Positions 5,487 through 62,156 of a stretch of DNA of 64,000 nucleotides are shown here, piece by piece; the stretch's first letter is position 1, and each line of letters starts with the position of its first letter. Both the position numbers and the translations under genes were made by a program. The DNA lies in contig NZ_CP012034.1 of NCBI RefSeq assembly GCF_001050475.1, forward strand, positions 2,046,001-2,110,000. The letters run 5' to 3'. The notes beneath the pieces were generated by a model. That model had not been told where the DNA came from, made no database searches, and saw only the letters and a program-made list of their open reading frames with translations. The stretch is from Companilactobacillus ginsenosidimutans. Lineage in GTDB: Bacteria > Bacillota > Bacilli > Lactobacillales > Lactobacillaceae.

Positions 5487-5678
5487 GCCGTCTCCAGAGC
5501 TGGAAAATATTTTTTTGGCTGTGCGGGACGGCCCGAGCCAAAGTGCGGCCTCGGCCCTAGGTTTGAAGCCTTGTATAGTTCGACAAGTCTCCAAACTCGC
5601 CCGGTGTAATAAGCACGGAAGAATCGTCCGTGCTTATTACACTTTCACTGCCAAAAAATATTTTCCAGCTCTTCCGAC
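5487..5678 (+). repeat. Structured intergenic element, class A copy 1
   Basis: The outer stem pairs 5496-5519 with 5650-5672 (AGAGCTGGAAAATAT and its complement). Inside are three hairpins: GGCC(c)GAG with CTCGGCC around a CCAAAGTGCGG-type loop; GTTTG-A-AG...CT-CAAAC; and a perfect 15-bp stem GTGTAATAAGCACGG with its complement. The left end is GCCGTCTCC and the right end TTCCGAC. TTTCACTGC precedes the right arm. It lies 43 bp upstream of the DMT transporter start, so it is either transcribed in the leader or holds or displaces the promoter. Confidence 0.85.
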
Positions 5679-5798
5679 TGATACTCAATCTTATTCGAAT
5701 GTAACAACATCCAATTCATTGATGTTCCAAGTTTGAAGCATGTCAAAAGAGCCCAAGAGTAACAAGCATAAAATACTAAGTACTTTAATTATACAGTT

Positions 5799-5813
5799 TT
5801 GAAAACGCTTTTA
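5799..5813. promoter_or_regulatory. Candidate catabolite-responsive element (cre)
   Basis: TTGAAAACGCTTTTA differs from the consensus WTGNAARCGNWWNCA at one position. It lies between the class A and class B elements, upstream of the minus-strand DMT transporter. CcpA binding is an inference. Confidence 0.35.
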
Positions 5814-5973
5814 TATGTATAAAACGTCAAGAGTTTTGTAAAATCCAAAATTTTGGAGAAAAATAGGCTGGAACAAATTAATGTTCCAGCCTATGAAATT
5901 ATATTTAACAGTAAAACTATGCTTAACAATAAAATTATACCTATTTTAGATAAGAAGATTCTATCTAGACGGA

Positions 5974-6126
5974 GAAGAAAAATAGATTTGGCCTCAGTAC
6001 TGAGATTTGAGTTAGTTGGGGAATTGTCCCAACTTACCTCAAAGGCCGAGTTTGGAAACATCTCGTACTTTGAGATGGTTTCAAATCGTGCCCAGTACGT
6101 TCCAGGCCTAAAATCTATTTTTCTTC
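5974..6126 (+). repeat. Structured intergenic element, class B copy 1
   Basis: The outer stem pairs GAAGAAAAATAGATTT (5974-5989) with AAATCTATTTTTCTTC (6111-6126) and continues inward as GGCCT/AGGCC. Within it are a hairpin TTGAG...GTTGGG/CCCAAC...CTCAA and a second hairpin with GTTTGGAAACATCTC opposite GAGATGGTTTCAAA. It closely resembles the minus-strand copy at 18633-18785 outside the arms. It abuts the 3' end of argD. Confidence 0.82.
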
Positions 6127-6146
6127 GTAGTCGGAATCAAAGATCA

Positions 6147-7280
6147 CTAATTATCTAAAACTGACTTAATTAACCCAATACCTTTTGTAATATTAGACTC
6201 ATCCATTATCAAAGGAGGTAACAATCTCAACGTATTGTGTTTAGCCGAAATAGTAAGCAATCCAGCATCTTGGAGTTGACCAATTACATCGCCAACAGGT
6301 ACTTTTTCGTCCAAATGAATTCCGACCATAAATCCTAATCCAGTAATACTTGTAACCACTGGTAAAGGTTTGATCTCAGTATTCAATTTTTCCCAAAGTA
6401 GCTTGGACTTTGCTTGTACTTCTTTCAAGAAATCAGGAGTGAGTTGTTCCAGAACTCCACTTGCGGCTGCCATTGATAGTTTATTACCACCGAAAGTCGT
6501 GCCATGAGTTCCTGGTCCAAAAGCGCTCGCTAATTTCTTGTTACCAATCATTGCTCCGATTGGTGTTCCGTTCCCTAAAGCCTTAGCTGAAGTAACTATG
6601 TCTGGATCTAAATCGAATTGTTCATAAGCGAATTTTGTACCTGTACGACCAATTCCAGTTTGGACTTCGTCGATAATTAAGAGTACATCGTTTTCTTTAC
6701 ATGCTTTTTGAACGTCTGCTAACCATGATTTGTCAGCTACAACGACTCCACCTTCACCTTGAATAACTTCCAGGATTACGGCAGCTAAATCGGAAGTGAT
6801 TTTCGAAATAGCTTTTTCGTCATTATAATCAGCAAATTTAACGTCTGGTACTAGTGGGGTGAATCCTACTCGAATATCAGGATTGCCGGTTAGCGACATT
6901 GATCCGTAGGTACGTCCATGGAATCCATTGTTAAAAGCTAAGACGGTTGTTTTGCCACTGTATTTACGTGCTAATTTGAAGGCTGCTTCGTTAGCTTCAG
7001 TACCTGAGTTACAGAAGAAAGCTAATTGGTCATCGTTTGTTAGTTGGCCAGCAACTTTGTCTTGAATAGCACTTTCGTACAAGTTTGAAGTGTGCCAAAT
7101 TTTCTTAGCTTGGTCTTCAACGTTCTTTTGAATGAGCTCGTTGCTGTAACCAAAGCTACAAACACCAATTCCACTTGTAAAATCTAAATAAGTTTTTCCA
7201 TTATTATCTGTTAAAAATACGTCGTGTCCTTCAACTAAATCGAAGGGGAAACGTGAATATGTTGGGAATACATTTTCCAT
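6147..7280 (-). CDS. argD: Acetylornithine aminotransferase
   Basis: This 377-residue class-III PLP aminotransferase converts N-acetylglutamate semialdehyde to N-acetylornithine, using glutamate as amino donor. Visible landmarks are NSGTEANE (91-98, phosphate/PLP contact), the NNGFHGRT loop (117-123), IIDEVQTGIGRTG with D204, and the Schiff-base lysine K233 in SAKALGNG. Length is normal for ArgD. It is the last gene of the minus-strand argC-J-B-D operon, 20 bp after argB, with a GGAGGCTCAC ribosome site. No terminator is obvious directly after it; the class B element occupies that position. The operon assignment makes ArgD more likely than ornithine or GABA aminotransferase. Confidence 0.93.
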   Translation of the reverse strand: MENVFPTYSRFPFDLVEGHDVFLTDNNGKTYLDFTSGIGVCSFGYSNELIQKNVEDQAKKIWHTSNLYESAIQDKVAGQLTNDDQLAFFCNSGTEANEAAFKLARKYSGKTTVLAFNNGFHGRTYGSMSLTGNPDIRVGFTPLVPDVKFADYNDEKAISKITSDLAAVILEVIQGEGGVVVADKSWLADVQKACKENDVLLIIDEVQTGIGRTGTKFAYEQFDLDPDIVTSAKALGNGTPIGAMIGNKKLASAFGPGTHGTTFGGNKLSMAAASGVLEQLTPDFLKEVQAKSKLLWEKLNTEIKPLPVVTSITGLGFMVGIHLDEKVPVGDVIGQLQDAGLLTISAKHNTLRLLPPLIMDESNITKGIGLIKSVLDN

Positions 7281-7300
7281 AGTGAGCCTCCAGAATTTTT

Positions 7301-8047
7301 TTATACTGTTGTGTTGTATTGAAATTGTGTTCCCGGACGGCCTAAGTCGTTAGTGATAAATGTCTGGTTGACACCGTTTTTCAAAGCTTTGAATGAAGCT
7401 TGAATTTTTGGCATCATACCTGACTTAATAATATCTTTTTGATACAGCTTGTTTGCGTCTGTTTCTGTTAGTTGGGGAACTACTTTGCCGGAGTTCAAAA
7501 CTCCTGGTACATCGGTCAACAGAACCAATGATTCTGCGCCTAATTGAATGGCAATCGTGGCTGCAGCCATGTCAGCGTTGACGTTTAGCCAATGCCCATC
7601 TGCAGTTTGTGCTAGAGGTGCCAAAATACCGATTTGATCTTGTAATTGTTCATTGAGCCAAGTTTTATTGATGTTAGTTACTTGTCCGACTTCACCGTAT
7701 TCTTCTTGGTTTAAATATTTACCTTGGAGTAAGTGATTGTCACTTGCGTTCATGCCGATGACAGGTAATCCGGCATTATTTACAAATTGACAAAGTTTTG
7801 GTTGAACCATTCCGAGAAGAACAGCTTTTGTAATATCCAATGTATCGGAATTTGTAACTCTAATACCATCAATTTTTTTGACTGAGAGGTGCATCTTTTC
7901 ACTCCATTGTGAAATTTGTGGACCTCCACCATGAATAATTAAAATTTGCTTACCTTGCTTCCACCAATCTTTCAATTGAGTAAAGAAAGTTTCTGGCAAT
8001 TGATCACTCGCGTTTCCACCTATTTTAATAACAATTGTTTCCTTCAT
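7301..8047 (-). CDS. argB: N-acetylglutamate kinase
   Basis: The 248-residue amino-acid kinase phosphorylates N-acetylglutamate using ATP, the step before ArgC. The glycine-rich KIGGNASD near residue 8 and IIHGGGPQIS near residue 37 are the ATP/substrate loops; SLVLLTDVPGVL and KSGMMPKIQASFKAL match the conserved C-terminal half. It is on the short side for ArgB, as in other Gram-positive ornithine-cycle pathways. It lies between argJ and argD on the minus strand with a good AGGTGAAAT ribosome site. Key lysines K8 and K215-type positions appear intact. Confidence 0.93.
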   Translation of the reverse strand: MKETIVIKIGGNASDQLPETFFTQLKDWWKQGKQILIIHGGGPQISQWSEKMHLSVKKIDGIRVTNSDTLDITKAVLLGMVQPKLCQFVNNAGLPVIGMNASDNHLLQGKYLNQEEYGEVGQVTNINKTWLNEQLQDQIGILAPLAQTADGHWLNVNADMAAATIAIQLGAESLVLLTDVPGVLNSGKVVPQLTETDANKLYQKDIIKSGMMPKIQASFKALKNGVNQTFITNDLGRPGTQFQYNTTV

Positions 8048-8087
8048 AATATTTCACCTCATACTTAAATTTTTGTTCGAAAGTTGA

Positions 8088-9299
8088 TTAGCTCCTGTAT
8101 GAAGCGTTAATTCGGACGTAATTATAAGTGAGGTCACAGCCCCAAGCTTGGCCTGTAGCAGTTCCGGAATTCAAATCTACTAAAATTGTGATTGTATTGC
8201 TCTCCAGTGTTTTTTTCATTTCTGCTTCATCAAAGTTGGCACTAGCACTGTTATCAACAAGGGCTAGCCCGTTCAACCAGACTGATGTGTGGTTGATATC
8301 AACTTTGGCGTTAGTTTGACCAATTGCGGCAATAATTCTGCCCCAGTTAGCATCTTCACCAAAGATAGCAGCTTTGACTAAGTTTGAACCAACGATGGCT
8401 TTGGAAACTTTTTGTGCGTCATCATGGTTAGCAGCATTTTTAACATTTACTTCGACTAATTTAGTTGAACCCTCTCCATCTTTGGCGATGTCCTTAGCTA
8501 GTTCACTGAGTACTTTATTGAAGGCACTGACAAATGCGGGATAATCAGCACTTTGCTCTGTGATTTCAGTGTTACCCGCTGCACCATTTGCCAAAGTTAC
8601 CACCATGTCATTGGTTGAAGTGTCACCATCAACGGTGATTTGGTTAAATGTCGAATCAACTTCGTGACTCAACATGGGTTGTAATAATCCATCAGAAATT
8701 TTTGCATCAGTAACGACGAATCCTAGCATGGTAGCCATTTTTGGATGAATCATTCCTGAACCTTTGCAAAAACCTGAGATAGTTACAGGTTTATTTTCCA
8801 CTGTCAATTGAACTGACACAGTTTTGGCATGCTTATCAGTAGTCAAAATTGCTTTAGTGACATCTGTATTGTCTTTTAATTCTAGTTCTGAAATACCATG
8901 TTCCATGATATCCATTGGCAATGGTACGCCGATGATACCTGTGGAAGCAACTCCGACGAGTTGTTGTTCAATATTAAGCTTGTTAGCAACGAGTTGTTGA
9001 ACTTTTTTAGCGTCAATCATGCCTTGGTCGCCGGTAACTGAGTTCGCATTAGCTGAATTCATTACGACTGCTTGAAGTTCATGTTTGATGTTAATTGTTT
9101 GTTTTGTTAGTTTCGTTGGTGCAGCTTGAAATTGGTTAGTTGTATAAGTTCCTGCAGCTTGAGCTGGTACCTCGGAATAAATCCAGCCCATGTCTTTGCC
9201 CTCACGCAAACCTGCGTGGATCCCATCTGATTGATAGCCCTTTGGCCAAGCAAAGGGCACAACATTGTAGGCAATTGCGTCTTCTGAAGATGTCTTCAT
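8088..9299 (-). CDS. argJ: Bifunctional ornithine acetyltransferase / N-acetylglutamate synthase
   Basis: The 403-residue precursor is of the ArgJ family. It self-cleaves before the threonine nucleophile in the conserved segment GMIHPKMATMLGF (T190), giving alpha and beta chains. The enzyme transfers acetyl from N-acetylornithine to glutamate, recycling the acetyl group, and often also makes N-acetylglutamate from acetyl-CoA. That would explain the lack of an argA-type gene in this operon. The N-terminal GIHAGLR and MNSANANSVTG motifs and the C-terminal end VRINASYRS match the family. It sits 13 bp downstream of argC. Confidence 0.94.
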   Translation of the reverse strand: MKTSSEDAIAYNVVPFAWPKGYQSDGIHAGLREGKDMGWIYSEVPAQAAGTYTTNQFQAAPTKLTKQTINIKHELQAVVMNSANANSVTGDQGMIDAKKVQQLVANKLNIEQQLVGVASTGIIGVPLPMDIMEHGISELELKDNTDVTKAILTTDKHAKTVSVQLTVENKPVTISGFCKGSGMIHPKMATMLGFVVTDAKISDGLLQPMLSHEVDSTFNQITVDGDTSTNDMVVTLANGAAGNTEITEQSADYPAFVSAFNKVLSELAKDIAKDGEGSTKLVEVNVKNAANHDDAQKVSKAIVGSNLVKAAIFGEDANWGRIIAAIGQTNAKVDINHTSVWLNGLALVDNSASANFDEAEMKKTLESNTITILVDLNSGTATGQAWGCDLTYNYVRINASYRS

Positions 9300-9312
9300 A
9301 AAAAAATTCCTC

Positions 9313-10341
9313 CTAAATTGGTAGTACAGGGATTAGGTTCAATCCTGTCTCTGGTTCAAAACCAAACATTTGATTAAAGTTTTGGATTGCTTGTCCAGCG
9401 GCACCTTTTAGGAGGTTATCAATAACACTAACTATTACGATTTGATGGGTAACAGGGTTTAATTGATAACCGATGTCACAGAAGTTAGTTCCGACAACTT
9501 GTTTCAAAGCTGGGAAAACTCCTTCAGTAGCATTTACAAAGGTGTCATCTGAGTATGTTCGGACGAAAGCATCCCGTACATCTTTTTCAGTTACGTCAGA
9601 TTTTGCCTTTGCGTAGCAACTGGCCATTATTCCACGAGTTAGTGGTAATAAGGTTGTTGTGAACTGAATATAAGGTACGTTCTCGTCCCATTCTTGTAAT
9701 TGTTGAACAATTTCTGGAATATGTTGATGTTGATTTACCTTATACAGTTGCAGATTTTCATTTGTTTGACTGAAATGAGTTAATTGAGTCAATTTCTTTC
9801 CCGCACCGGAAGTACCAGATTTGGCATCCACCACGATTGAAGTAGGGTCAATTAAATGATTTTGTACTAGTGGAGCTAAGGCCAAAATTGTTGAAGTGGC
9901 ATAGCAGCCAGGGTTTGAAACATAAGTTTCTCCCTTAGAACTAGTAAAATCTGTTAATCCATAATGTGACTTGTTCAAGTATTCAGTACTTGGAGCTTCT
10001 TTCTTGTACCATTTCTTGTAAACGTCACGTGACTTCAACCGATAGTCACCGGCTAAATCAATTACTGGGAAGTTAGCATCGATAAAAGGCTTAGCTAACT
10101 CAGTAGTTACACCGGCAGATGTTGCGAAAAAGACCATTTGGTTATTTTTCATGATATCAGCAGGATTATAAGGCAAAATGTTATCGCGTCGTCGCAGTTG
10201 AGGCATTACCGTTTCTAGAGATTGTGCTTCAGTTTGTGCGTGTCCGTATAAGTTGACTTGATCAACGTTAGGGTGTCGTAACAATAATTCAAAAAGAACG
10301 CTACCGCTATATCCGGTAACTCCGACTAGACCAACATTCAT
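9313..10341 (-). CDS. argC: N-acetyl-gamma-glutamyl-phosphate reductase
   Basis: I start this protein at the ATG at 10339-10341, giving 342 residues beginning MNVGLVGVTGYSG, a normal ArgC N-terminus. An open frame extends 32 codons further upstream, but those residues are not ArgC-like, and an AAAGGA ribosome site serves the internal ATG. The enzyme reduces N-acetylglutamyl phosphate with NADPH. The catalytic cysteine is in VSNPGCYATS (C146 in this numbering) and the general-base histidine is in the HQHIPEI segment. It is the promoter-proximal gene of argC-J-B-D. A good sigma-A promoter and a palindrome precede it. Confidence 0.93.
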   Translation of the reverse strand: MNVGLVGVTGYSGSVLFELLLRHPNVDQVNLYGHAQTEAQSLETVMPQLRRRDNILPYNPADIMKNNQMVFFATSAGVTTELAKPFIDANFPVIDLAGDYRLKSRDVYKKWYKKEAPSTEYLNKSHYGLTDFTSSKGETYVSNPGCYATSTILALAPLVQNHLIDPTSIVVDAKSGTSGAGKKLTQLTHFSQTNENLQLYKVNQHQHIPEIVQQLQEWDENVPYIQFTTTLLPLTRGIMASCYAKAKSDVTEKDVRDAFVRTYSDDTFVNATEGVFPALKQVVGTNFCDIGYQLNPVTHQIVIVSVIDNLLKGAAGQAIQNFNQMFGFEPETGLNLIPVLPI

Positions 10342-10379
10342 TAGGATCATCCTTTCTTTGATATCTGATTTATAACTCT

Positions 10380-10401: not shown

Positions 10402-10415
10402 GAGAATTAATAACC

Positions 10416-10444: not shown

Positions 10445-10575
10445 GCTTTTTTTAATGATAATTCTAATTTTTATCATTTTAGGAATAGTGCCATGTCGGG
10501 GTTTTAAGGATTCATTTTCAGAAAATTAGTTTAGTTTTCTAATAATTGGGATAAGTATTATGAGAGTGGGGATAT

Positions 10576-10749
10576 GCCGCCTGCGGTCGAAAACGGTGAG
10601 GCTGCTGTGGGACCGCCCTGAGCCGAGGTCTCAGGGCTCGATTTTAAGCCTTGCATGGTTCTCGCAAGTCTTAAAAGTCGTCCAGTACTGTAAGCGATAA
10701 ATCGCCAACAGTACTTTCACTGCTTGCCTCAACGTTTTCGACCTCCGGC
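10576..10749 (+). repeat. Structured intergenic element, class A copy 2
   Basis: The outer stem pairs GGTCGAAAACG (10585-10595) with CGTTTTCGACC (10733-10743), extended by GCCG/CGGC at the ends and TGAGGC/GCCTCA inside. Hairpin 1 is CCCTGAG/CTCAGGG, hairpin 2 is TTTTAAG...CTTAAAA, hairpin 3 is AGTACTGT/ACAGTACT with an inner GCGAT/ATCGC. It is nearly identical to copy 3 (13068-13239); the hairpin-1 difference is compensatory (T-A here, C-G there). Confidence 0.87.
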
Positions 10750-10818
10750 TGGTTTTGCTGAATATTGCAGCATGTCAATTCTTTCATTTCGTTCTGGGGT
10801 CAGAATAGGTGAGAACAA

Positions 10819-12992: not shown

Positions 12993-13067
12993 TTTGTATA
13001 CCTTCCAAACAAGTTAACTTTTATTATATATTAATTTGTTGAAAATAAATATATACGGTGGGGATAT

Positions 13068-13239
13068 GCCGCCTGCGGTCGAAAACGTTGAGGCCGCTGT
13101 GGGACCGACCCGAGCCGAGGTCTCGGGGCTCGATTTTAAGCCTTGCATGGTTCGCAAGTCTTAAAAGTCGTCCAGTACTGTATTCGATAAATCGCCAACA
13201 CTACTTTCACTGCTGGCCTCAACGTTTTCGACCTCCGGC
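13068..13239 (+). repeat. Structured intergenic element, class A copy 3
   Basis: This copy matches copy 2 over nearly its whole length, including GGGGATATGCC at the left flank. The outer stem pairs GGTCGAAAACGTTGAGGC with GCCTCAACGTTTTCGACC without mismatch. Hairpin 1 is CCCGAG/CTCGGG. In hairpin 3 the right arm reads ACACTACT, introducing one mismatch against AGTACTGT. It lies upstream of the NrtR-type gene. Confidence 0.87.
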
Positions 13240-13271
13240 TGGGTTTTGCCAATAATGCAGTGTTGATAATT

Positions 13272-13546: not shown

Positions 13547-13729
13547 GTCGGAGTTCAGGACCGGGGAAATCCAGCAGTGAAAGTACTGTTAGTGCTTTAG
13601 CACTTACAGTACAGGGCGATATGGAGACTTGCATGAACTTTGCAAGGCTTCATATCGAACTTTGAGACCGCACTTAGGCTCAAAGTGTCCCACACAGCAG
13701 GATTTTCCCCGGTCCTGAACGGAGACGGC
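13547..13729 (-). repeat. Structured intergenic element, class A copy 4 (reverse orientation)
   Basis: The outer stem pairs GTTCAGGACCGGGGAAATCC (13553-13572) with its complement at 13700-13720. Read on the minus strand it shows the class order: GCCGTCTCC end, GTGTGGGAC, hairpin ACTTTGAG/CTCAAAGT with loop CCTAAGTGCGGT, hairpin GATATGAAGCCTTGCA/TGCAAGTCTCCATATC, hairpin CTGTACTGT with inner AGTGCT/AGCACT, TTTCACTGC, and TCCGAC end. It starts 4 bp after the stop codon of the ABC ATPase gene, so it is likely carried in the 3' untranslated region of that operon. Confidence 0.87.
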
Positions 13730-13733
13730 ATAT

Positions 13734-14483
13734 TTAGAAATACTCGAGTAAATCTTCTTCTTTCAACTTAGCCTTAGCCTCAGTATCAAGATCCAAAATA
13801 ATCTTACCTTTTTTCAAAACAATCAATCGATTGCCATACTTAACAGCTTCGCTCAAGTTATGCGTAACCATCAAACAAGTAAGCTCTTTATCCTTAACAG
13901 TTTTGTCAGTTAACTCCATAAGTTCCTGACTAGTTTGAGGGTCAAGCGCAGCAGTATGTTCATCCAATAGCAGCAACTCTGGTTTTTGAATGATTGCCAT
14001 TAGAAAACTCAAAGTTTGGCGTTGACCACCTGATAGATTGTCGGTAAATGTGTTTAGACGATTATCCAATGTGGGTAGGTCTGCGGTTAATTTTTCGAAT
14101 GATTCCATGTTGTCTTTTAGATGACGTAAACGTAACCTGCGAGGGAGTCCGCGGCGTTTTGCTAAGAGCAAATTCTCAGCTACTGTCATCCTTGGAGATG
14201 TTCCTAATTTGGGATCCTGGTAGACACGTGAAATAAATTTACTTCGTTTAGCTAAATTTTTTCCAGTGATGTCATCATCGTTCAATAAAATTTTTCCAGA
14301 AGTGATGGAATTGGCGCCGGTTATTGCGTCAAGCAGTGTGGACTTGCCGGCACCGTTTGTTCCTAGGACTACGATGAAGTCTTTGGGATAAATTTTTAAG
14401 TTGATACCATCTAAAATATTTAAATTTTGATTGTCGTTATAAATTGTCTTAACGGCGTTATCTATTTCCATGATTGGTTTCAT
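13734..14483 (-). CDS. ABC transporter ATP-binding protein, TrpZ-type
   Basis: The 249-residue ATPase has Walker A GTNGAGKST (residues 42-50), the signature LSGGQRQ and Walker B LLLDEHTAALDP. The DEHTAALDP form is typical of the COG1101 ATPases that pair with COG4120 permeases and COG2984 binding proteins (the TrpXYZ group). It is the third gene of the operon and overlaps the permease stop by 4 bp (ATGA). It energises import of the ligand captured by the binding protein encoded first. Tryptophan is the best-known substrate of this group in Firmicutes, but tyrosine and other ligands are possible. Confidence 0.88.
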   Translation of the reverse strand: MKPIMEIDNAVKTIYNDNQNLNILDGINLKIYPKDFIVVLGTNGAGKSTLLDAITGANSITSGKILLNDDDITGKNLAKRSKFISRVYQDPKLGTSPRMTVAENLLLAKRRGLPRRLRLRHLKDNMESFEKLTADLPTLDNRLNTFTDNLSGGQRQTLSFLMAIIQKPELLLLDEHTAALDPQTSQELMELTDKTVKDKELTCLMVTHNLSEAVKYGNRLIVLKKGKIILDLDTEAKAKLKEEDLLEYF

Positions 14484-17837: not shown

Positions 17838-18613
17838 TGATGTACTTATTAATAGCTTTTATAATTTTATTGTTAATAGTAACCGGAACCCGTGGTCTGT
17901 CATTGTTGCTCGGATTGGGCATCAACATAATAGCTATCATCGCATTATTGATTTTGATAGCAGACGGTTTCAACGTCATAATCACCACCGCCATTGTTTC
18001 TGTCATAATTTTAATTGTCGCAATTTATATGAATGTGGAAAATTCTGTCACCGCTAATATTTCATTTAAGACGTCAATCATTATTACAGCAGTAATCCTG
18101 CTAATCACCATTCCAATCTTATATTGGTCAAGCACACAAGGGATGGGTGTAGAGGATCAAGAAGAGTTAGAAGGATTCTCACTTGCGGCAGGAGTATCAT
18201 TCCCACAATTAGCGATTGCGACGATTATTGTTAACAGTTTGGGAGTTATTTCTGAAACAAGCGTGGCAATTACTAGTGGATTGAATGAGATTGTTTTGAG
18301 TAAACCAACGCTAACTAATAAGGAAGTGTTCGATGACGGTTTTTCTGTCGGAAACAAAATTTTGAGCACACAGACTAATACTTTGCTGTTCAATTTTTTT
18401 GCTACGACTTTTCCATTGTTTTTCTTGATGAATACTTTACGGTTTAACTTTGGTGATATTGTTAATGATAAGATTTTTGGAGCAGAAGTGTTGACCACTG
18501 TTGTATGTACGATTGGTGTTATCTTGACAGTTCCAATCACCGCATGGCAAGTCTCCCGAACTTCGCGGTCTGCTATTGTTGAAAGTGCTAAAACAGAGGA
18601 TAAGGAGAAGTAG
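17837..18613 (+). CDS. YibE/F family membrane protein, second of a pair
   Basis: The 258-residue protein has about seven membrane segments and lacks the extracytoplasmic domain of its upstream partner. The family segment is visible as NSLGVISETSVAITSGLNEIVLSKP, corresponding in position to the partner's LDETMDISSSLIEMKQ. The two proteins probably form a hetero-oligomeric membrane complex, an inference from pairing and overlap. The gene ends 20 bp before a class B structured element; no separate terminator is seen until the hairpin at 18909. Confidence 0.8.
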   Translation: MMYLLIAFIILLLIVTGTRGLSLLLGLGINIIAIIALLILIADGFNVIITTAIVSVIILIVAIYMNVENSVTANISFKTSIIITAVILLITIPILYWSSTQGMGVEDQEELEGFSLAAGVSFPQLAIATIIVNSLGVISETSVAITSGLNEIVLSKPTLTNKEVFDDGFSVGNKILSTQTNTLLFNFFATTFPLFFLMNTLRFNFGDIVNDKIFGAEVLTTVVCTIGVILTVPITAWQVSRTSRSAIVESAKTEDKEK

Positions 18614-18632
18614 GGGTGTGGATTCCGATTCC

Positions 18633-18785
18633 GAGAGAAAATCGATTTTGTGGCCTGGAACGTGGTGGGCACGATTTGAAACCATTTCACAGTTCGAAAT
18701 GTCTTCAAACTCGGCCTTTGAGTAGGTTGGGATAGTTCCCCAACCAACACAAACTTCACCACTGAGGCCAAATCGATTTTCTCTC
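18633..18785 (-). repeat. Structured intergenic element, class B copy 2 (reverse orientation)
   Basis: The outer stem pairs GAGAGAAAATCGATTT (18633 on) with AAATCGATTTTCTCTC (18770-18785). Read on the minus strand, its interior follows class B copy 1 closely: GGCCTCAGT, GGTTGGG/CCCAACC hairpin, CTCAAAGGCCGAGTTTG, ATGGTTTCAAATCGTGCCCA and ACGTTCCAGGCC. The outer arms differ in sequence from copy 1 but remain complementary. Confidence 0.84.
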
Positions 18786-18908
18786 TCCATCTAAATAGAG
18801 CATCTGTTTTCTTACTTGCCGAAAAGTAACGGGCAGTTAGTGAGACATGCCTTTGTTCTTTTCACAATTATGTATTTGTAAGTTGGTCTAATCAATTAAT
18901 AATATAAA

Positions 18909-18944: not shown

Positions 18945-19053
18945 ATTTATTTAGTTTTTTGATCTTATCACTTGAACCGAGAACCTCTGTGTAGACATCA
19001 ACGACAAGAAAAACATAAAATAGCAAACTTGCCTTAGATTGCACTATCTGGCA

Positions 19054-19212
19054 TGGAGGTGGAGTACTGCGGGGAGCCAGCCGTGAGATTTCACTTAGCT
19101 CGGCCATAAAGCCGAGGTTAGTGAAAGGTTGTAAAAGTTGACCGCTCTATGGCAACTTTTCAACCCATGGCGTTCCGCCCCCGCAGTACGGAACCTCCAG
19201 GCGGCAGTGAAC
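19054..19212 (-). repeat. Structured intergenic element, class C copy 1 (reverse orientation)
   Basis: Outer arms TGGAGGT and AGTACTGCGGGG (19054-19074) pair with CCCCGCAGTAC and ACCTCCA (19179-19199). Read on the minus strand, a hairpin GGTTG-AAAAGTTG/CAACTTTT-ACAACC encloses a loop ending GCGGT, and a second hairpin TTTCACT...CTCGGC/GCCGAG...AGTGAAA follows. The outer arms and left end GTTCACTGCCG match the plus-strand copy at 61996-62156 almost exactly, whereas the inner arms differ. Confidence 0.86.
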
Positions 19213-19226
19213 CACAAACCCAAAAT

Positions 19227-20147
19227 TTAAGGCAAATCATTCCCGGCGGCAAAATAGAGATCATACCACTCTTGATGTGTCAGCTCGATATCAGCAGCCT
19301 GACAACTATCAATAATGTGTTTAGGGTTCATTGTACCAATAATAACCTGCATCTTAGCAGGGTGACGCAAAATCCAAGCTGCAGCAATCGCATTTTTCGA
19401 CACACCGTATTTCTCGCCAAGCTTTTGTAGCTCAGCATTCAATTCAGGGAAGTCTGGGTTGTCGATGAAAACTCCTTCGAACATTCCATATTGGAATGGT
19501 GACCAAGCTTGTAGAGTTACACCCATGCGACGAGAAAATTCGATTAGTTCTCCGTCGTGGTTGATTGAACGGTCGTCAGCCATGTTACTGTGAATTCCGT
19601 GGTCAATCATTCCTGTGTGCATCAAACTGAATTGCACTTGGTTGACTAATAATTTTTGATTGAGTGATTCTTGTACAAGTAAAAATTGTTGTGGATTAAA
19701 GTTTGAAACTCCGAAGTGTCTAACTTTTCCACTTTGTTGTAAGTCGTCGAAAATATCGGCTACTTCTTCTGGCTCCATTAGTGGATCTGGACGATGGAGT
19801 AGGAATGAATCTAAGTAGTCGACGCCAAGACGTTTCATGCTACCATCAATTGCATTCATAATATGTTCTCTAGAAAAATCGTATTTCTTACCTGGAACGA
19901 TGGCAGCTTTAGTTTGGATGTATAAATCTTCACGTTTAACGCTGCTTTGTTTAAGTGCATCGCCAAAGCGTTGCTCGGATTCACCTTTTCCATACATATC
20001 GGCGTTATCCACGAAATTGATACCGCAATCATACGCAGTTTCGATTGCTTTAACTGCTTTGTCAACAGACAATGCGTCCATTCTCCATGCACCAAAGGCA
20101 ATTTCGGATACTTGCCAATTTGTCTCTCCAAGACTGAGTTGTTTCAT
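19227..20147 (-). CDS. Aldo/keto reductase
   Basis: The 306-residue TIM-barrel oxidoreductase carries the full catalytic tetrad: D47 and Y52 (FVDNADMYGKGE), K80 (IQTKAAI) and H118 (FLLHRPDP). The order and length match YdhF-like NAD(P)H-dependent aldo/keto reductases of Firmicutes. The physiological substrate cannot be read from sequence. It has a GGAGGAATAAC ribosome site and stands alone: the class C element is 14 bp beyond its stop codon and the GDPD gene ends 140 bp upstream of its start. Confidence 0.88.
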   Translation of the reverse strand: MKQLSLGETNWQVSEIAFGAWRMDALSVDKAVKAIETAYDCGINFVDNADMYGKGESEQRFGDALKQSSVKREDLYIQTKAAIVPGKKYDFSREHIMNAIDGSMKRLGVDYLDSFLLHRPDPLMEPEEVADIFDDLQQSGKVRHFGVSNFNPQQFLLVQESLNQKLLVNQVQFSLMHTGMIDHGIHSNMADDRSINHDGELIEFSRRMGVTLQAWSPFQYGMFEGVFIDNPDFPELNAELQKLGEKYGVSKNAIAAAWILRHPAKMQVIIGTMNPKHIIDSCQAADIELTHQEWYDLYFAAGNDLP

Positions 20148-22061: not shown

Positions 22062-22088
22062 TTTATCCCCTTGTGGTTGTGTTACGTT

Positions 22089-22275
22089 GCCGTCTGCAGA
22101 GCTGAGAAATATTCTTCGGCTGTGCGGGACGGCCCGAGCCAAGGTCTCGACCCTCGGTTTGAAGACTTACCATAAATCGGTAAGTCTCCAAACTCGCCCG
22201 GTGGTGTAAGGGTGGCGTGGTTCGCCGCCCTAACGCCACTTTCACTGCCTTCGAATATTTCTCAGCTCTTCCGAC
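22089..22275 (+). repeat. Structured intergenic element, class A copy 5
   Basis: Seventeen-base perfect arms, AGAGCTGAGAAATATTC (22098-22114) and its complement (22253-22269), enclose three hairpins. Hairpin 2 is GTTTG-A-AGACTTACC/GGTAAGTCT-C-CAAAC, keeping an A-C mismatch also seen in copy 1. Hairpin 3 pairs GTGGTGTAAGGGTGGCG with CGCCGCCCTAACGCCAC using G-U pairs. Ends are GCCGTCTGC and TTCCGAC. It starts 27 bp upstream of the GDPD start codon, leaving room for a ribosome site but no promoter. Confidence 0.87.
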
Positions 22276-22608
22276 TGGTTCTGTTCAATCAATCGATTAT
22301 ACAATTTTTGAAAAAATCAGTATTTCTAGCTCTAAAAATTATTTGAATTACTATAAAAAATTAATCGGAAATCTTAATAGCTAGCGCCATACGTAATAAT
22401 ATATAAAAAGTTTAATACTGTTTGTAAATAATGCCAAAATATTTTAAAAAAATATGATTTTTCGTAATTGTTATATAGCTAACGATATAATAATTAAGAT
22501 TGATTACAGAAATGTTTAATTCTTATTACAATTGACTGAGTTGCATTGAATACCCTAGACCGAAATAGTAGTCTAGTTCTAGTAGATAAATCCTTAGGGG
22601 GAAACCAA
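22276..22608. other. AT-rich intergenic region upstream of the GH73 gene
   Basis: About 330 bp, mostly A/T, with no supported gene. It must hold the promoter of the downstream autolysin; several TATAAT-like sequences occur (for example near 22490), but none has a convincing -35 partner. I saw no clear tandem TGTWAH WalR box. Confidence 0.4.
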
Positions 22609-36606: not shown

Positions 36607-36620
36607 CCTAAATTATCCAA

Positions 36621-36692
36621 TATCTTCCTACACTAATATTAATTAGATCAGGTTCAATGGGTTTAATCTCAGCCTTGCGGCACCCCAGATAT
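36621..36692 (-). ncRNA. TPP riboswitch (transcription-terminating) of ykoEDC
   Basis: The minus strand carries the THI-box hallmarks in order: CTGGGGTGCC, GGCTGAGATTAAACCC, TTGAACCTGATC and GTGTAGGAAGA. It precedes ykoE and an intrinsic terminator. Confidence 0.93.
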
Positions 36693-36851
36693 ATTTTTCG
36701 AAGAATGTTATAACAATTGCAAGCTTATCATGTAGCTCATGACGTGTAAAGCTAGTTATATTTATAGCAATTAAACGAATAATCGTTAAATCAATATTTT
36801 TCAGTATAAAATATGAAAACATGATATGATTACTCCAATCAAATATTAATC

Positions 36852-36933
36852 GCTAGGGGTGCATTAAAAATGCTGAGATTGTAAATGCCAATCCCTTTGA
36901 ACCTGATTTGGTCAAAACCAACGTAGGAAAGTG
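36852..36933 (+). ncRNA. TPP riboswitch of tenA
   Basis: The plus strand carries CTAGGGGTGC, TGCTGAGATTG, ATCCCTTTGAACCTGAT and CGTAGGAAAGTG in the order of a THI-box aptamer. It precedes the TenA gene by about 50 bp, with a hairpin that covers the ribosome site and no terminator. Confidence 0.93.
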
Positions 36934-36938
36934 ATAAT

Positions 36939-36972
36939 CCTTGCAGATTGATATTTGAAATATCAAGCAAGG
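36939..36972 (+). promoter_or_regulatory. Ribosome-site-sequestering hairpin before tenA
   Basis: CCTTGC (36939-36944) pairs with GCAAGG (36967-36972) and GATATT with AATATC inside it. The right arm contains the AAGG of the AAGGTGG ribosome site of tenA. No T-run follows, so translational control is indicated. Confidence 0.65.
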
Positions 36973-56912: not shown

Positions 56913-56924
56913 AAAATAAATTGG

Positions 56925-57063: not shown

Positions 57064-58107
57064 ATGGTAAGAAAAAGACTTAGCTACATCGACTACTTAA
57101 AAATCACCGCCATGTTTGGGGTGATAATGTCGCATTCGCTAGCAGAAACATTAAACCAAAATCGTTTCTCATTCGACTGGCATGTGAAAAATATCTTTCT
57201 TGGTACAGTATCACCAGCAGTCGGGATTTTCTTCATGGTTAGTGGGGCATTAATATTATCGAGTACAAAAACAGACAACATTGGATATTTATTTAAACAT
57301 CGACTAGTAAAAATTATGGTTCCATTCTTGATCTGGTCAGGAATATCAATTCTGGTCATGATGCAATTGGACGGAAATGTTTCGTGGGGGATGTGGCTTC
57401 ACAGGATGCTGTTGCTGTACAACAGATTTCCAATTATTCCTTTCTGGTTCTTATATCCACTAATTGGTTTTTACTTGTTATCGCCAATTTTAAAGGCGTT
57501 TGTCGACAAAGCAAGTATGAGAACATTAGATTATGCAATCATCTTGTGGTTCGTGACGAACATCTGCCTGCCGTTTATCGCGCAATTGTTGCCAAAGAAA
57601 TTCGGAATTTATTTTACATATATTCCAAATTCAAATTTGATCATTTTAGGTCAGACGATTGGTTATTTCTTGCTTGGGTACAGATTAGACAAGACTCCAA
57701 TTAAACCACACACATTCCAGTCAAATGTCGTCGCGACACTTTTACTTTTAGCAATCACAATTATATTGAACTATGAAAATTTGCTGTATCACTGGCATAT
57801 TCCGGTTATCGGTTATGCACCATCAATTTTTGCTGTAATATTAGCCATGGAAATTTTCTTAATGGTTAAAAAATGGGATTACTATCATCCACTAACCAGA
57901 TCTCGACGTAGAAGGGTAACATTACTTTCGACAATGAGTTATGGAGTGTATTTAACACACGGAATGGTAATTCAAATTATCGAAGAAGCATTTCATATTG
58001 ATAACTTCTTCTTAGTATTTTTATTAACCTCAGTAATTTGTTTAGTATTTACATATGCTGTCAGTAAAATACCGAAAGCTAGATTTTTCCTTTTAGGGAT
58101 GGACTAA
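57064..58107 (+). CDS. Acyltransferase family 3 membrane protein
   Basis: The ATG at 57064 (TAGGGGA upstream) gives 347 residues with about ten membrane segments. The family-3 signatures YIDYLKITAMFGVIMSHS near the N-terminus and TVSPAVGIFFMVSGALIL are clear, with the catalytic His in that first segment. Relatives O-acetylate or otherwise acylate surface polysaccharides, teichoic acids or peptidoglycan (without the SGNH domain of OatA). The target here is unknown. Confidence 0.83.
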   Translation: MVRKRLSYIDYLKITAMFGVIMSHSLAETLNQNRFSFDWHVKNIFLGTVSPAVGIFFMVSGALILSSTKTDNIGYLFKHRLVKIMVPFLIWSGISILVMMQLDGNVSWGMWLHRMLLLYNRFPIIPFWFLYPLIGFYLLSPILKAFVDKASMRTLDYAIILWFVTNICLPFIAQLLPKKFGIYFTYIPNSNLIILGQTIGYFLLGYRLDKTPIKPHTFQSNVVATLLLLAITIILNYENLLYHWHIPVIGYAPSIFAVILAMEIFLMVKKWDYYHPLTRSRRRRVTLLSTMSYGVYLTHGMVIQIIEEAFHIDNFFLVFLLTSVICLVFTYAVSKIPKARFFLLGMD

Positions 58108-58110
58108 AAA

Positions 58111-58148
58111 AACAGGCACTCAAGACTTAATCGTCTTGGATGCCTGTT
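58111..58148. terminator. Bidirectional terminator between acyltransferase and protease genes
   Basis: AACAGGCACTCAAGAC and GTCTTGGATGCCTGTT pair over 16 positions with one wobble; A-run and T-run flank it. Confidence 0.88.
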
Positions 58149-58160
58149 TCATTTTTTACA

Positions 58161-58799
58161 TTATTTATAATACAAATTAATTGCGGCAACATCTTTAGCT
58201 GTGATGTCAGTATTTGGTGTCTTGTACCACATAATTGATCCGTCTGAATCAGTGTGTGTATCTTTCAAACCCAAAGCGTGGCCTAATTCATGTTCGACAA
58301 CACGTCTGCCCATTGTTGAAAGGGTAGCTTGTGGAATTGTTGTTTTTGAGAGGTCAATTTTTGAGGAAATTACTTCGGTGTAACCTTTAGATTTATTAAT
58401 TGTATTAGTAGTCAAACCATTTTCAGCGCTGCTTGTTCCACTATTGGTGAAAACGATTGATGAACTGTTCTTATCTTTTGATTCGTACAAGTTTACTTTA
58501 GTTTGCATGTTCCATTGAAGTGCAGCGGCACGGATATCTTGTTGAACACCCTTGGCTGTTCCAGGTGTGATGTAGTAAGCAATTGTGTTTGTGTCGAAAT
58601 GTTCATTTTGAGTAATATCAGATGTGTTTGAAGTTGCTGTATTACCTAATGTTTGAGTTTTTGTTTGTGTAGTTTTTGAAACAACTAGTGAGTTTCCAGT
58701 TGAGTCGGCTTTTGCGTCTTGAATTTGACTAACAGAAATTACTGGTGTTAGTAAAAGTGTGGCAGTAGCTAGTAATGCAATCTTTTTGATGTTTTTCAT
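58161..58799 (-). CDS. Secreted matrixin-like zinc metalloprotease
   Basis: The ATG at 58797-58799 is preferred to the TTG three codons earlier because the latter directly abuts AGGGGGA. The 212-residue protein has a signal peptide (NIKKIALLATATLLLTPVISVS), a Thr/Gln/Asn-rich propeptide-like stretch and a C-terminal catalytic domain with VVEHELGHALGLKDTH (HExxHxxGxxD zinc site) and a Met-turn GSIMWYK. It is a small M10-like protease, exported and possibly wall-associated. A related but differently ended protein is encoded at 24715. Confidence 0.82.
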   Translation of the reverse strand: MKNIKKIALLATATLLLTPVISVSQIQDAKADSTGNSLVVSKTTQTKTQTLGNTATSNTSDITQNEHFDTNTIAYYITPGTAKGVQQDIRAAALQWNMQTKVNLYESKDKNSSSIVFTNSGTSSAENGLTTNTINKSKGYTEVISSKIDLSKTTIPQATLSTMGRRVVEHELGHALGLKDTHTDSDGSIMWYKTPNTDITAKDVAAINLYYK

Positions 58800-58868
58800 A
58801 AATAGCAATCCCCCTGTAATACCTAGCCTAATTATAGTACATATTCATATTTTTTCCATAAATAAAAA

Positions 58869-58890
58869 AATAAGACCCGCAGGTCTTATT
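58869..58890 (-). terminator. Terminator of the nucleoside hydrolase gene
   Basis: AATAAGACC and GGTCTTATT form a stem followed by seven T on the minus strand; it overlaps the stop codon. Confidence 0.85.
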
Positions 58891-59824
58891 TGTCATAACT
58901 CTTAATTGAGTCTAATAAGTATTTTACGAATGCCTCACGATCAACGTCTTCGAGAACCTTGACATTGTTGTGTTCTTCAGCATAGACACGTCTGTCAGGG
59001 TAGGTCATACCTCTGAATTGGTCATTTGTTAAACCAACATCGATTGAGTAATTTTCACTCTTAGTAAATAATTCTGGTTTCAACATGCTAATAACAGCAC
59101 AGGCATCGTGAATTGGGATTTTAGTCATACCTTTTTCAAGTTCGGCTCCAGCATAAAAATCAAGGATTGAACTGGCCATGACACCAACTTCGCCTAAATC
59201 TTTAATAGATTTGATTTCATCCATTGTCATATATGCTTTGTTCTCGGTTAAATTCAAACCTGAAAGTGTAACGGGTACACCTGAGTCAAAGACAATTTTA
59301 GCGGCTTCAGGGTCAACATAGGCATTGAATTCAGAAGCTAAAGTTATGTTCCCTTGTAAAGTTGAGCCACCCATAACGTAAATGTGGTCAATCTTTTCGT
59401 GAATTTCTGGGAAAGTTTTGAGTAGTAATGCGATGTTAGTCAAAGGTGCAGTGGCGATAATGTCTACAGGTTCGTCACTTTCGGCAAGTTTGTTATAAAT
59501 AAAAGTAACCGCATTTTCACTAGCTAAAGGATAATCCAAACTTTCTTTAGGAAAGTCATATCCTTCCATACCAGTTTTACCATGGATTTCACCGGCAGTC
59601 TCAATTTCCTTGACTAATGGTTCTGCTTGTCCGGATGCGAGTTCGGTGTGTGAGCCTAAAAATGTTAGCAACTTCTTTGCATTTTGTGTGACGTAATTCA
59701 AGGCCACGTTTCCACCAACTGTTGTTACACCGATTACATCGGCAATCTCTGGATGTGCCAGCAATACGGTGATTGCGATGGCATCATCAATACCAGGATC
59801 ACAGTCCATAATTACTTTTTTCAT
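58886..59824 (-). CDS. Inosine/uridine-preferring nucleoside hydrolase
   Basis: The 312-residue protein belongs to the IunH/Rih family. The calcium-binding N-terminal motif is VIMDCDPGIDDAIA, with VTTVGGNV, ATAPLTNIALLL, MGGS and PIHDACAV (C-terminal Asp ligand) also conserved. It hydrolyses the N-glycosidic bond of nucleosides to ribose and base for salvage. Its start overlaps the stop of the upstream MarR gene by 4 bp (ATGA), so the two are translationally coupled. Confidence 0.92.
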   Translation of the reverse strand: MKKVIMDCDPGIDDAIAITVLLAHPEIADVIGVTTVGGNVALNYVTQNAKKLLTFLGSHTELASGQAEPLVKEIETAGEIHGKTGMEGYDFPKESLDYPLASENAVTFIYNKLAESDEPVDIIATAPLTNIALLLKTFPEIHEKIDHIYVMGGSTLQGNITLASEFNAYVDPEAAKIVFDSGVPVTLSGLNLTENKAYMTMDEIKSIKDLGEVGVMASSILDFYAGAELEKGMTKIPIHDACAVISMLKPELFTKSENYSIDVGLTNDQFRGMTYPDRRVYAEEHNNVKVLEDVDREAFVKYLLDSIKSYDK

Positions 59825-60273
59825 TGTTTCTTGACCTCACTTTGCTCTGTATTTTGCAACTTTTCGGGCAATTTTTGTAAAGCGTGCATAAATCCTCGTC
59901 GTTCAAAAGCACCAAGGCTTGAAAGGATTCGTTGGTCATTTTGTTTCATGAAATCATCAATGTTAGTTTGAATCTTAAGTGCCTTTTCCAAGACGGTGAT
60001 TTTCTTTAATCTTGAATCTGATTCGACAGCCTCACGCTTAATTAACTCTTTTTTCTCCATAATTTTGAGAATATTAGTTGCAGTCGATCGACGGATATTA
60101 AATTCTGCTTCAATATCCTTTTGAAAAACGTCCTCGTTGTTAGGAACACTAGTTAAAAAATCAATTATTTGAACTTGTGTACCTGTTAAATCATAGGTTG
60201 ATGCAAAATCATTAACACTGCGAGAAATCTCGTTCGACGCCACCTTAATCAAATGAGCGATATTACCCGACAT
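59821..60273 (-). CDS. MarR family transcriptional regulator
   Basis: The 150-residue protein has the MarR winged helix: DLTGTQVQIIDFL, FNIRRSTATNILKIMEKKELIKREAVESDSRLKKITVLE. It is encoded directly before the nucleoside hydrolase gene with a 4-bp overlap and probably controls that operon. The ribosome site is AAGGAGGAT. A fructosamine kinase gene is divergent, 80 bp away, and may share control. Confidence 0.88.
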   Translation of the reverse strand: MSGNIAHLIKVASNEISRSVNDFASTYDLTGTQVQIIDFLTSVPNNEDVFQKDIEAEFNIRRSTATNILKIMEKKELIKREAVESDSRLKKITVLEKALKIQTNIDDFMKQNDQRILSSLGAFERRGFMHALQKLPEKLQNTEQSEVKKQ

Positions 60274-60355
60274 ACGTATCCTCCTTGAAGCCCCATTATT
60301 GTTCCTTCTAAAATTATATCATGATAGTATTGAAATATGCGAAAGGAAGATAGAA

Positions 60356-61207
60356 ATGCTTGTTGATAAAGATTGGTATAGTGAATTAAAACTCGGTAAT
60401 ATCGAAAATATTGAACCAGTTTCTGGCGGGGACATTAACTTGGCTTTCAAAGTCACATCTTCTACAGGAAAATATTTTTTAAAGGTACAACCGAATAATA
60501 ATGCAAGTTTCTTTGATCATGAAGTAGAAGGCTTGAATTTAATTAATTCAGTTGCTAACGCTCCAAAGGCTATTAGATCTGGCACGTTCAAAGGCAACGG
60601 CTATCTAATTTTAGAATATGTTGAATTTGGAACTGATTCTGAATATGCCTTGGGTAAACTGGTTGCTAAAATGCATCAAAAGCACAACGACCAGTTCGGT
60701 TTGGATCACAATATTAAGAATGCTAAAAATCCTAAAATCAATACGTGGCAGGATAACTGGGGTGACTTTTATGTCAAACAACGGCTGGAAGTATTGGAAA
60801 TTCAAGTTAAACAAAAGGGACTCTGGAATGGTTATCGAGAGAACTTATTAGATAGATTGAAAGCAAAAGTTTATGAGTATTATTCCAATCATCCAGTTAA
60901 GCCAAGTTTGATGCACGGTGATTTGTGGAATGGTAACGCTGGATTTCAAAGCGACCATCAACCAATTCTTTTCGACCCTGATGTATTTTTTGGTAATCGA
61001 GAAATGGATATTGCTATGACACTGCTTTTTGGCGGATTTAGCAAAGACTTTTATGATGGCTATCAAAGTGTTTACCCACTAGATGAGGGATGGGAAGATC
61101 GAGTTTCCTGGTATCAAAGCTACTATTTATTAGCACATCTTAATCTGTTTGGTGAAGGATACGGTGCAAGTCTAGAAAACTCATTAGAAAGATCAATAAG
61201 TTTTTAA
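60356..61207 (+). CDS. Fructosamine kinase family protein
   Basis: The ATG at 60356 behind AAAGGAAG gives 283 residues; an in-frame start 19 codons earlier has no ribosome site. Kinase-like landmarks are VSGGDINLAFKV, YFLKVQPN (ATP-binding Lys), LILEYVE, LMHGDLWNGNAGF (catalytic loop) and ILFDPDVFFGNREMDIAM (metal Asp). FN3K-type kinases phosphorylate ketosamines on glycated proteins or small molecules, which leads to deglycation. It is divergent from the MarR/nucleoside hydrolase operon. Confidence 0.9.
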   Translation: MLVDKDWYSELKLGNIENIEPVSGGDINLAFKVTSSTGKYFLKVQPNNNASFFDHEVEGLNLINSVANAPKAIRSGTFKGNGYLILEYVEFGTDSEYALGKLVAKMHQKHNDQFGLDHNIKNAKNPKINTWQDNWGDFYVKQRLEVLEIQVKQKGLWNGYRENLLDRLKAKVYEYYSNHPVKPSLMHGDLWNGNAGFQSDHQPILFDPDVFFGNREMDIAMTLLFGGFSKDFYDGYQSVYPLDEGWEDRVSWYQSYYLLAHLNLFGEGYGASLENSLERSISF

Positions 61208-61336
61208 AATGTTGTTACCGTATTCATAAAGTTTATAATTATATGTGTATCTTGGTATTTATGAGAAACATATTTTGTAATTAGATATATGCTAATTTAT
61301 ATTGAAAGTAGTTAAAAAAGACGGGAGATTCTGAAT

Positions 61337-61984
61337 ATGGCAAACATTTTAATATTAGGTGCAAACGGACAAATCGCACAATTGAGCGAAAACATTTTCT
61401 TGGATTCAACAGGTGACAACATGAAGTTGTATCTAAGACGTGCAGATCGACTACGCGACAAGGCCGCACAATATGAAGACAGAATCGAACTAATTGATGG
61501 GGATACAACAGACGTCGATAAATTAGTTGATTCAATGAAAGACGTAGACATGGTATACGCTAACTTAGCAGGTGGTAACATCAAGGACCAAGCTGAGTCA
61601 GTTGTTGAGGCAATGCACAAGGCCGGCAAAACAAGACTAGTATGGATTTCAACATTAGGTATTTATGACGAAGTCCCTGGCAAATTTGGTCAATGGAACA
61701 ACAGTACTTTAGGCAGCTACATCACAAACTACGCTGCAGCAGCCAAAGTACTTGAGGATTCAGACTTAGATTACACAATTATCAGACCAGCCTGGTTGAC
61801 TAATAAAGACGAAGTTGATTATGAAGTTACACAGAAGGGTGAAGCATTTAAGGGTACTGAAGTTTCTAGAAAATCAATTGCCCAAGTTGTTGTTGATATT
61901 GCACAAGATCCTTCGCAGTTTAGCAAAGCATCAATTGGTGTTAACAAACCAAACACAGACGGAGACAAACCTAGCTGGTATTAG
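61337..61984 (+). CDS. NAD(P)H-binding atypical SDR family protein
   Basis: The 215-residue Rossmann protein begins ANILILGANGQIAQL, with a GxxGxxxxL nucleotide-binding motif, and continues LRRADRL, DLDYTIIRPAWLTN and KSIAQVVVDIA. This is the layout of atypical short-chain reductases such as NmrA-like or YhfK-type proteins, with no classical YxxxK catalytic motif. Role unknown. The gene ends 11 bp before a class C structured element. Confidence 0.85.
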   Translation: MANILILGANGQIAQLSENIFLDSTGDNMKLYLRRADRLRDKAAQYEDRIELIDGDTTDVDKLVDSMKDVDMVYANLAGGNIKDQAESVVEAMHKAGKTRLVWISTLGIYDEVPGKFGQWNNSTLGSYITNYAAAAKVLEDSDLDYTIIRPAWLTNKDEVDYEVTQKGEAFKGTEVSRKSIAQVVVDIAQDPSQFSKASIGVNKPNTDGDKPSWY

Positions 61985-61995
61985 AATGGTTTGAG

Positions 61996-62156
61996 GTTCA
62001 CTGCCGTCTGGAGGTTCCGTACTGCGGGGGCGGAACGCCATGGGAAACGAGTGAGCCAAAGTGCGGTCTCACTAGATTTCCTTGTTGTAAGGCCGGCTTA
62101 TGGCCGACCAAACAACAATTGCACGGCTGGCTCCCCGCAGTACTCCACCTCCAGAC
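61996..62156 (+). repeat. Structured intergenic element, class C copy 2
   Basis: Outer arms GTCTGGAGG and GTACTGCGGGG (62006-62029) pair with CCCCGCAGTAC and CCTCCAGAC (62133-62156). Inside, GGGAAA-cg-AGTGAG pairs with CTCACT-aga-TTTCC around CCAAAGTGCGGT, the same loop as in class A copy 1. A second hairpin TTGTTGT...CGGC/GCCG...ACAACAA follows. The outer part is nearly identical to the reverse copy at 19054-19212. Confidence 0.86.

Follow-up and report, generated by a model that had tools for sequence, protein, structure and literature searches.

A family of branched, gene-facing intergenic palindromes in the genus Companilactobacillus

One structural family in the window

The stretch of DNA analysed here (the window) comprises 64,000 nucleotides of the 2.59 Mb chromosome of Companilactobacillus ginsenosidimutans (NZ_CP012034.1, positions 2,046,001 to 2,110,000), referred to below as the host genome. 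It contains nine intergenic elements, which a first-pass annotation made from the letters alone had described as a superfamily in three classes (A, B and C), each copy with complementary outer arms enclosing two or three hairpins. Folding confirms this layout, an outer stem around two or three hairpins, at all nine places, with the true ends lying a few bases outside the coordinates given earlier, and hidden Markov models (HMMs) of the three classes match the window at these nine elements and nowhere else. The elements have a G+C content of 41-58%, as against 36.7% for the window, their fold energies on the better strand range from -69.7 to -100.7 kcal/mol and, as the annotation had it, they code for no transposase, their coding capacity being nil. 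When the end marked by TGCCG is set to the left, the elements at 5487, 10576, 13068, 18633, 22089 and 61996 read on the forward strand and those at 5974, 13547 and 19054 on the reverse strand, and six of the nine make up three inverted pairs: 5487(+)/5974(-), 13068(+)/13547(-) and 18633(+)/19054(-). The elements and two associated flank arms are listed below with the evidence for each, where R1 denotes a covariance model built solely on class B, from 29 copies in the host genome.

5480..5684, + strand: class A with three hairpins inside the outer stem, left partner in inverted pair 1 (fold; class A nhmmer score 170.2)
5968..6132, - strand: class B with two hairpins inside the outer stem, right partner in inverted pair 1, just past the stop codon of argD, a gene identified by NCBIfam (nhmmer; R1 170.6 bits)
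10572..10752, + strand: class A, argC upstream region (class HMM; comparison with relatives)
13064..13242, + strand: class A, left member of inverted pair 2 (class HMM, R1)
13547..13736, - strand: class A, right member of inverted pair 2 (class HMM, R1)
18590..18597, no strand: left flank arm AAAACAGA, in the last codons of the upstream gene (L045; kept as coding sequence in genome G032)
18627..18791, + strand: class B, left member of inverted pair 3, directly following the upstream gene's stop codon at 18611-18613 (R1 177.3 bits)
18803..18810, no strand: right flank arm of 8 nt, inverted copy of the left arm (flank comparison)
19044..19221, - strand: class C, right member of inverted pair 3, directly after the stop codon of gene 19227-20147(-) (class HMM)
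22083..22283, + strand: class A, partner not found (nhmmer score 191.9)
61987..62163, + strand: class C, starting 2 bases past the stop codon of 61337-61984(+), partner in the window not found (nhmmer score 172.4)

Although derived from class B alone, R1 recovers all nine elements at E 1.1e-4 or better, and it gives no tenth place in the window up to E = 1. The three classes are therefore one structural family, a stronger result than the superfamily first proposed. Read with TGCCG to the left, the common anatomy starts with TGCC(G) and an outer stem in which an internal loop is conserved (in class B, TTCCG x CTCC), followed inward by a second loop (TGGAAC x CTGAG) and by a junction bearing a GAAGCC..loop..GTCTYC hairpin and a final one; in class A an additional hairpin precedes the middle one. 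The whole forms a branched fold of 155-200 bp. The pieces that the annotation had seen recurring between classes belong in part to this plan, since equivalent hairpins do share the GCC..AAAGTGCG..GGTC loop and the GAAGCC/GTCTYC form; the likeness of TTTCACTGC, inside class A, to GTTCACTGCC, at the class C end, joins different places of the fold and is probably due to chance. Elsewhere, three chimeric copies (L091, L093 and L095) carry a class B interior within class C ends, and a shortened element of about 90 nt upstream of pcrA in genome G009 (L247) has a long outer stem and one hairpin only, with both ends kept.

The ends are sharp. Among the 66 of 70 copies that could be parsed, the right end reads C-TRR, with T in 97%, then A or G in 99% and again A or G in 88%. 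Read from outside, the two ends are TGCCG and CYAG and do not form simple terminal inverted repeats. Outside TGCCG lies a leader of about 20 nt that is poor in C and rich in G and T, often with GGTTCAC (e.g. window 61960-61990); its opposite strand, rich in C and A, could be a protein or Rho site.

The family is apparently undescribed, as far as Rfam and the open-licence PubMed Central (PMC) literature reach. At the gathering score, a search of the whole window against 4227 Rfam families matched none of the elements, in agreement with the annotation, and found only one tRNA and two thiamine pyrophosphate (TPP) riboswitches; when three of the loci were searched at E up to 1, two matches (E 0.48-1) appeared in the flanks, well below the gathering score. 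No description of such a family in lactobacilli was found in that literature. The two TPP riboswitches of the window are divergent, at 36608-36697 (-) and 36845-36946 (+), 150 bases apart.

Compensated changes in the stems

The earlier statement that stem sequences vary while pairing is kept is borne out by double changes at paired columns. In class B both sides have changed at 36 of 54 pairs, 97.3% of 1564 cells are paired (80.6% in shuffles) and 267 cells carry double changes (80 in shuffles); the pairing signal is lost when partners are slid by 1-3 columns. No shuffle out of 500 reaches class B on four of five covariation measures. On the remaining one, the number of pair types, class B is no higher than the shuffles (55 vs 57.7, with 443 of the 500 shuffles as high), so that covariation, a check proposed with the annotation, exceeds chance on most measures and not on all. 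Double changes are found at 41 of 60 pairs in class A. Counted as departures from the commonest pair, Watson-Crick double changes number 258 in class B and 227 in class A, and paired stand to one-sided changes as 258:14 and 227:23.

Covariation of this strength counts in favour of a structured RNA, that is, a 3' untranslated or antisense module acting in cis (through stability, termination or protein binding) and spread because it is useful, and so do the conserved unpaired bases and the repeated loop modules; the absence of a match to an Rfam family counts against it. The large excess of paired over one-sided changes would also suit template switching during replication, in which fold-back copying alone matches the arms, with little selected function, and copying that overruns leaves inverted host DNA; a fold-back mechanism of this type is outlined in PMC8794818.

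The balance of G-U and A-C pairs bears on whether RNA or DNA is being kept. On the TGCCG strand, departures from the commonest pair stand at 14 G-U to 23 A-C in class B and 23 to 21 in class A, so G-U does not exceed A-C there, which counts against a structured RNA. The same treatment of 30 TPP riboswitches from the genus gave 65 double changes, 10 G-U and 2 A-C, and the G-U:A-C departures differ from this control with a Fisher p of 0.027; over all cells, including constant G-U columns, the ratios are 87:44 and 81:2 (p 4e-9). This balance speaks, though not decisively, for pairing that matters on both strands, i.e. in DNA.

Copies, polarity and orthologous sites

The further copies that the annotation had suggested looking for are abundant. 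BLAST and the class HMMs together give 88 unique hits in the host (35 A, 37 B and 16 C), with three copies split by insertion sequences (IS) counted as halves, and 83 after a second removal of duplicates. R1 alone has at least 80 matches there, and some of its places are absent from the BLAST list of loci, so that the true host number is higher. Across 36 Companilactobacillus genomes, the host included, R1 matches 34, with at least 1540 matches in sum and eight genomes at 80 or more; these counts are lower bounds, taken from 80 candidates scored per genome, and some matches are the two strands of one copy. Genomes G006 and G034 have none, and copy number is patchy between species, from 0 to at least 80. 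That several genomes hold few or no copies sits poorly with a structured RNA retained for its usefulness. A class A DNA query matches 14 of the 36 genomes and none of 24 genomes outside the genus. Carriage by plasmids or phages was rejected in the sampled sets, which comprised searches of plasmids with class A and B queries and of phages with a class B query, all without a match.

The elements have a strong polarity with respect to genes. Taking long open reading frames (ORFs) as genes and dropping 21 of 83 copies with overlapping or missing ORFs, the gene lies closer to the TGCCG end than to the TRR end in 57 of 62 copies (p 3e-12), with similar proportions in class A (23/25), class B (24/26) and class C (10/11) and a median distance to the gene of 44.5 nt for the TGCCG end and 233.5 nt for the TRR end. 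Many class B and C copies stand directly after a stop codon in sense orientation, the left gene being on the + strand in 24 of the 35 class B copies that have a left gene and in 13 of 15 class C copies. This placement is again a point for a structured RNA, against which must be set the lack of any sense bias in class A (16/31).

Once halves of split elements and duplicate rows are removed, 46 of 50 pairs of neighbouring elements less than 1 kb apart are inverted (+-), with their TRR ends inward, and the opposite arrangement (-+) does not occur. In five of the 20 host rows the two members are halves of one class C element, and the remaining 15 comprise 14 (+-) and one (--); the other genomes contribute 36 rows, one of them a duplicate place, which leaves 32 (+-), two (--) and one (++). 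The TRR ends face each other over mostly 120-390 nt. Twenty-seven of the spacers between paired elements were compared and are mostly unlike, with five weak similarities at E up to 1e-3, and a single composite mobile unit made of both elements was rejected on these grounds; many of the 27 contain, by eye, a terminator-like hairpin. Such a polarity and such a rule of pairing are not known to us from any REP- or BOX-like repeat.

Empty orthologous sites, also among the checks first suggested, exist in relatives. In genome G032, two convergent genes that in the host enclose one class B and one class C element have only some 90 bp between them, with an ordinary terminator; at the stop codon next to which the host carries the class C element of 19044..19221, G030 carries one of class B, and G035 is without the host's element at 1201.9 kb. 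Other sites are shared. Upstream of argC, a class A element is found in the host and in C. mishanensis, and C. zhongbaensis and C. versmoldensis carry class-B-like elements oriented the same way; none was seen in five other named species in the stretch inspected, with R1 run on L110, L111, L112 and L114 only. Upstream of pcrA an element occurs in one orientation in many species, with very different stems, the copies of G007 and G016 having been recognised by eye and fold where R1 gave no match. Both sites lie on the promoter side with the same end toward the gene, which argues against a structured RNA.

The pcrA copies also allow pairs to be followed between genomes. Between G001 and G005, 46 of 63 aligned pairs are unchanged, 12 doubly changed, four singly changed and one broken, with an element divergence of 0.222 and intergenic flanks at 0.132-0.241. 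The corresponding figures for G007 and G016 are 40 unchanged, three doubly changed, five singly changed and three broken among 51 pairs (element 0.176, flanks 0.055-0.156), and those for the host and G030 are 43, nine, one and eight among 61. An early indication that the element evolves faster than its flanks was withdrawn; the signal came from a flank that ran into the gene and was gone with intergenic flanks.

The immediate flanks show no sign of a direct target duplication, which was rejected because direct repeats in the 45-nt flanks score no better than in permuted pairs (z 0.4, a level reached by 94 of 300 permutations). In the host, flanks are instead inverted repeats of each other in class B (28 copies, z 8.6) and class C (13 copies, z 4.8), and none of 300 permutations reaches the observed mean of the two classes. 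No such inverted copies are seen in host class A (25 copies, z 0.6) or in the 54 class-B-like and 36 weaker copies of other genomes (z 0.2 and -0.6), and as a general mark of insertion they are unsupported outside the host genome. The left arm of the 1201.9 kb element is the end of a gene and is also present, as coding sequence, in G035, where the right arm is missing; at pcrA 58 bases of one flank arm align with 52 of the other, of which the far one looks host-specific. These arms fit fold-back copying at or after insertion. Insertion into ready-made terminators, suggested by the inverted flanks of classes B and C, was rejected, the arm in G035 being coding sequence, the far arm absent and the terminator elsewhere.

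Mobility and its alternatives

Our moderately confident reading is that the elements are a non-autonomous mobile intergenic palindrome of REP/BOX-like type, so far seen only in Companilactobacillus and with an unusual polarity. Among the three roles offered by the first-pass annotation (structured RNA, non-autonomous mobile element and chromosome-organisation site), the mobile element is best supported because the copies are many, their ends are sharp, orthologous sites are empty and coding capacity is lacking; the annotation, which had only the nine window copies to go on, did not anticipate the spread through the genus, the constant polarity or the pairing in inverted orientation. Mobility itself is probable.

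A RAYT/IS200-type transposase was ruled out as general mover. The host's single Y1 gene belongs to an ordinary IS605-type tnpA-tnpB unit that is the sole such unit in the genome (G000:C1:2533012 region, L107), some Y1 is present in 18 of the 36 genomes, and none is found in nine of the 16 genomes with 60 or more R1 matches, so element-rich genomes can do without it. No autonomous partner sharing the ends was found in a genome-wide search that covered Y1 only. Three copies with inserts of 1.6-1.8 kb were considered as autonomous versions carrying their own gene and proved to be IS insertions:

G000:C1:447217-448960 (L103) and G000:C1:2550787-2552525 (L104): IS110-family insertions (PF01548, PF02371) at the same point of the middle hairpin in two class A copies, with left junctions identical over the compared bases
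G000:C1:1151024-1152891 (L105): IS3-like two-ORF insertion (rve domain) in another class A copy

The BOX, RUP and SPRITE repeats are likewise not known to have a transposase of their own, and the bcr1 repeat is mobile. The former, from Streptococcus pneumoniae, are structured repeats scattered between genes, confined almost entirely to a few related species and regarded as parasitic (PMC3049150), and by that description they resemble the present family as interspersed structured intergenic repeats of related species; the rewriting of stems with pairing kept, the gene-facing end and the pairs with one end inward are features here that go unmentioned in the abstract of PMC3049150. The bcr1 repeat of the Bacillus cereus group is, as outlined in PMC2267715, also alike in its size of about 150-165 bp, its conserved fold and its confinement to one species group, with 12-31 copies against at least 80 here. 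Dispersed intergenic copies with a conserved secondary structure in related species only, the hallmark of BOX- and bcr1-like repeats, are thus what the genus contains. With REP sequences and their BIME clusters the family shares multi-copy intergenic palindromes, an asymmetric end tag (here on the C-TRR side), inverted pairs and use as landing sites for IS elements, the last reported for REPs in PMC1525189 and the rest outlined in PMC3733652. It differs from them in its branched fold of 155-200 bp, REPs being single hairpins of 20-40 bp (PMC3733652), in ending with CYAG instead of a GTAG-type tag, and in lacking, in the Y1-free genomes, the RAYT gene that in REP systems is usually flanked by the repeats. 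Miniature inverted-repeat transposable elements (MITEs) are similarly short, non-coding, dispersed and without a transposase, whereas the two ends here differ from each other when read from outside, and the flanks gave no sign of a target duplication.

Several observations weigh against a mobile element. The same place and orientation in several species at argC and pcrA could reflect old inheritance rather than repeated insertion, and at pcrA the element has diverged about as much as its flanks. The inverted flank copies are confined to classes B and C of the host, and no moving enzyme was found, the exclusion covering only Y1/RAYT. Finally, when the opposite strand is folded, the G-U:A-C ratio becomes 31:9 in class B and 21:14 in class A. 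The class B excess makes the G-U test not decisive, weakens the shortage of G-U on the TGCCG strand as proof of a constraint on DNA and is a further point for a structured RNA, in this case one read from the opposite strand, an explanation that we nonetheless regard as doubtful given the class A orientation, the upstream sites and the patchy copy number.

Template switching as the sole cause is unlikely. The inverted host flanks, the one-sided arms at 1201.9 kb and pcrA and the prevalence of paired changes all accord with it, but copying of whole arms would erase conserved mismatches and internal loops, and these persist inside the arms (TTCCG x CTCC, a C.T mismatch, a bulged T); the inverted flanks are unseen in class A and in other genomes, and dispersal is left unexplained. 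Less likely still is a chromosome-organisation or boundary site, at which binding of a nucleoid protein or gyrase, or insulation of transcription units, would explain the bracketed intergenic regions: the fixed polarity and the inverted pairs, with spacers often holding a terminator-like hairpin, are in its favour, but copy number is patchy between species and we know of no binding protein.

If the elements are mobile, the repeat would work as a long imperfect palindrome with its TGCCG end on the gene side and its C-TRR end on the intergenic side, and an enzyme provided in trans, rather than a resident Y1/RAYT transposase, may recognise the fold in single-stranded DNA or as a cruciform. Insertion would be aimed at gene boundaries with TGCCG toward the gene, as a result of which an intergenic region receiving two copies would be bracketed by an inverted pair. 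The stems would stay matched since mispaired copies could not move, and template switching in replication possibly helps. The full scheme, a gene-oriented mobile palindrome with a trans-acting enzyme reading the branched DNA fold, fold-back rewriting of the stems and inverted host copies in a recently active lineage, is put forward tentatively, as a possible account.

The repeat described here adds a large family to a genus of food bacteria and provides a natural test of how long DNA stems stay matched while their sequence changes. The IS110-family element at an identical point in two copies is a ready case for guide-RNA target matching. More generally, the polarity toward genes calls for a targeting rule, and identification of the mover could reveal a new structure-guided transposition enzyme.
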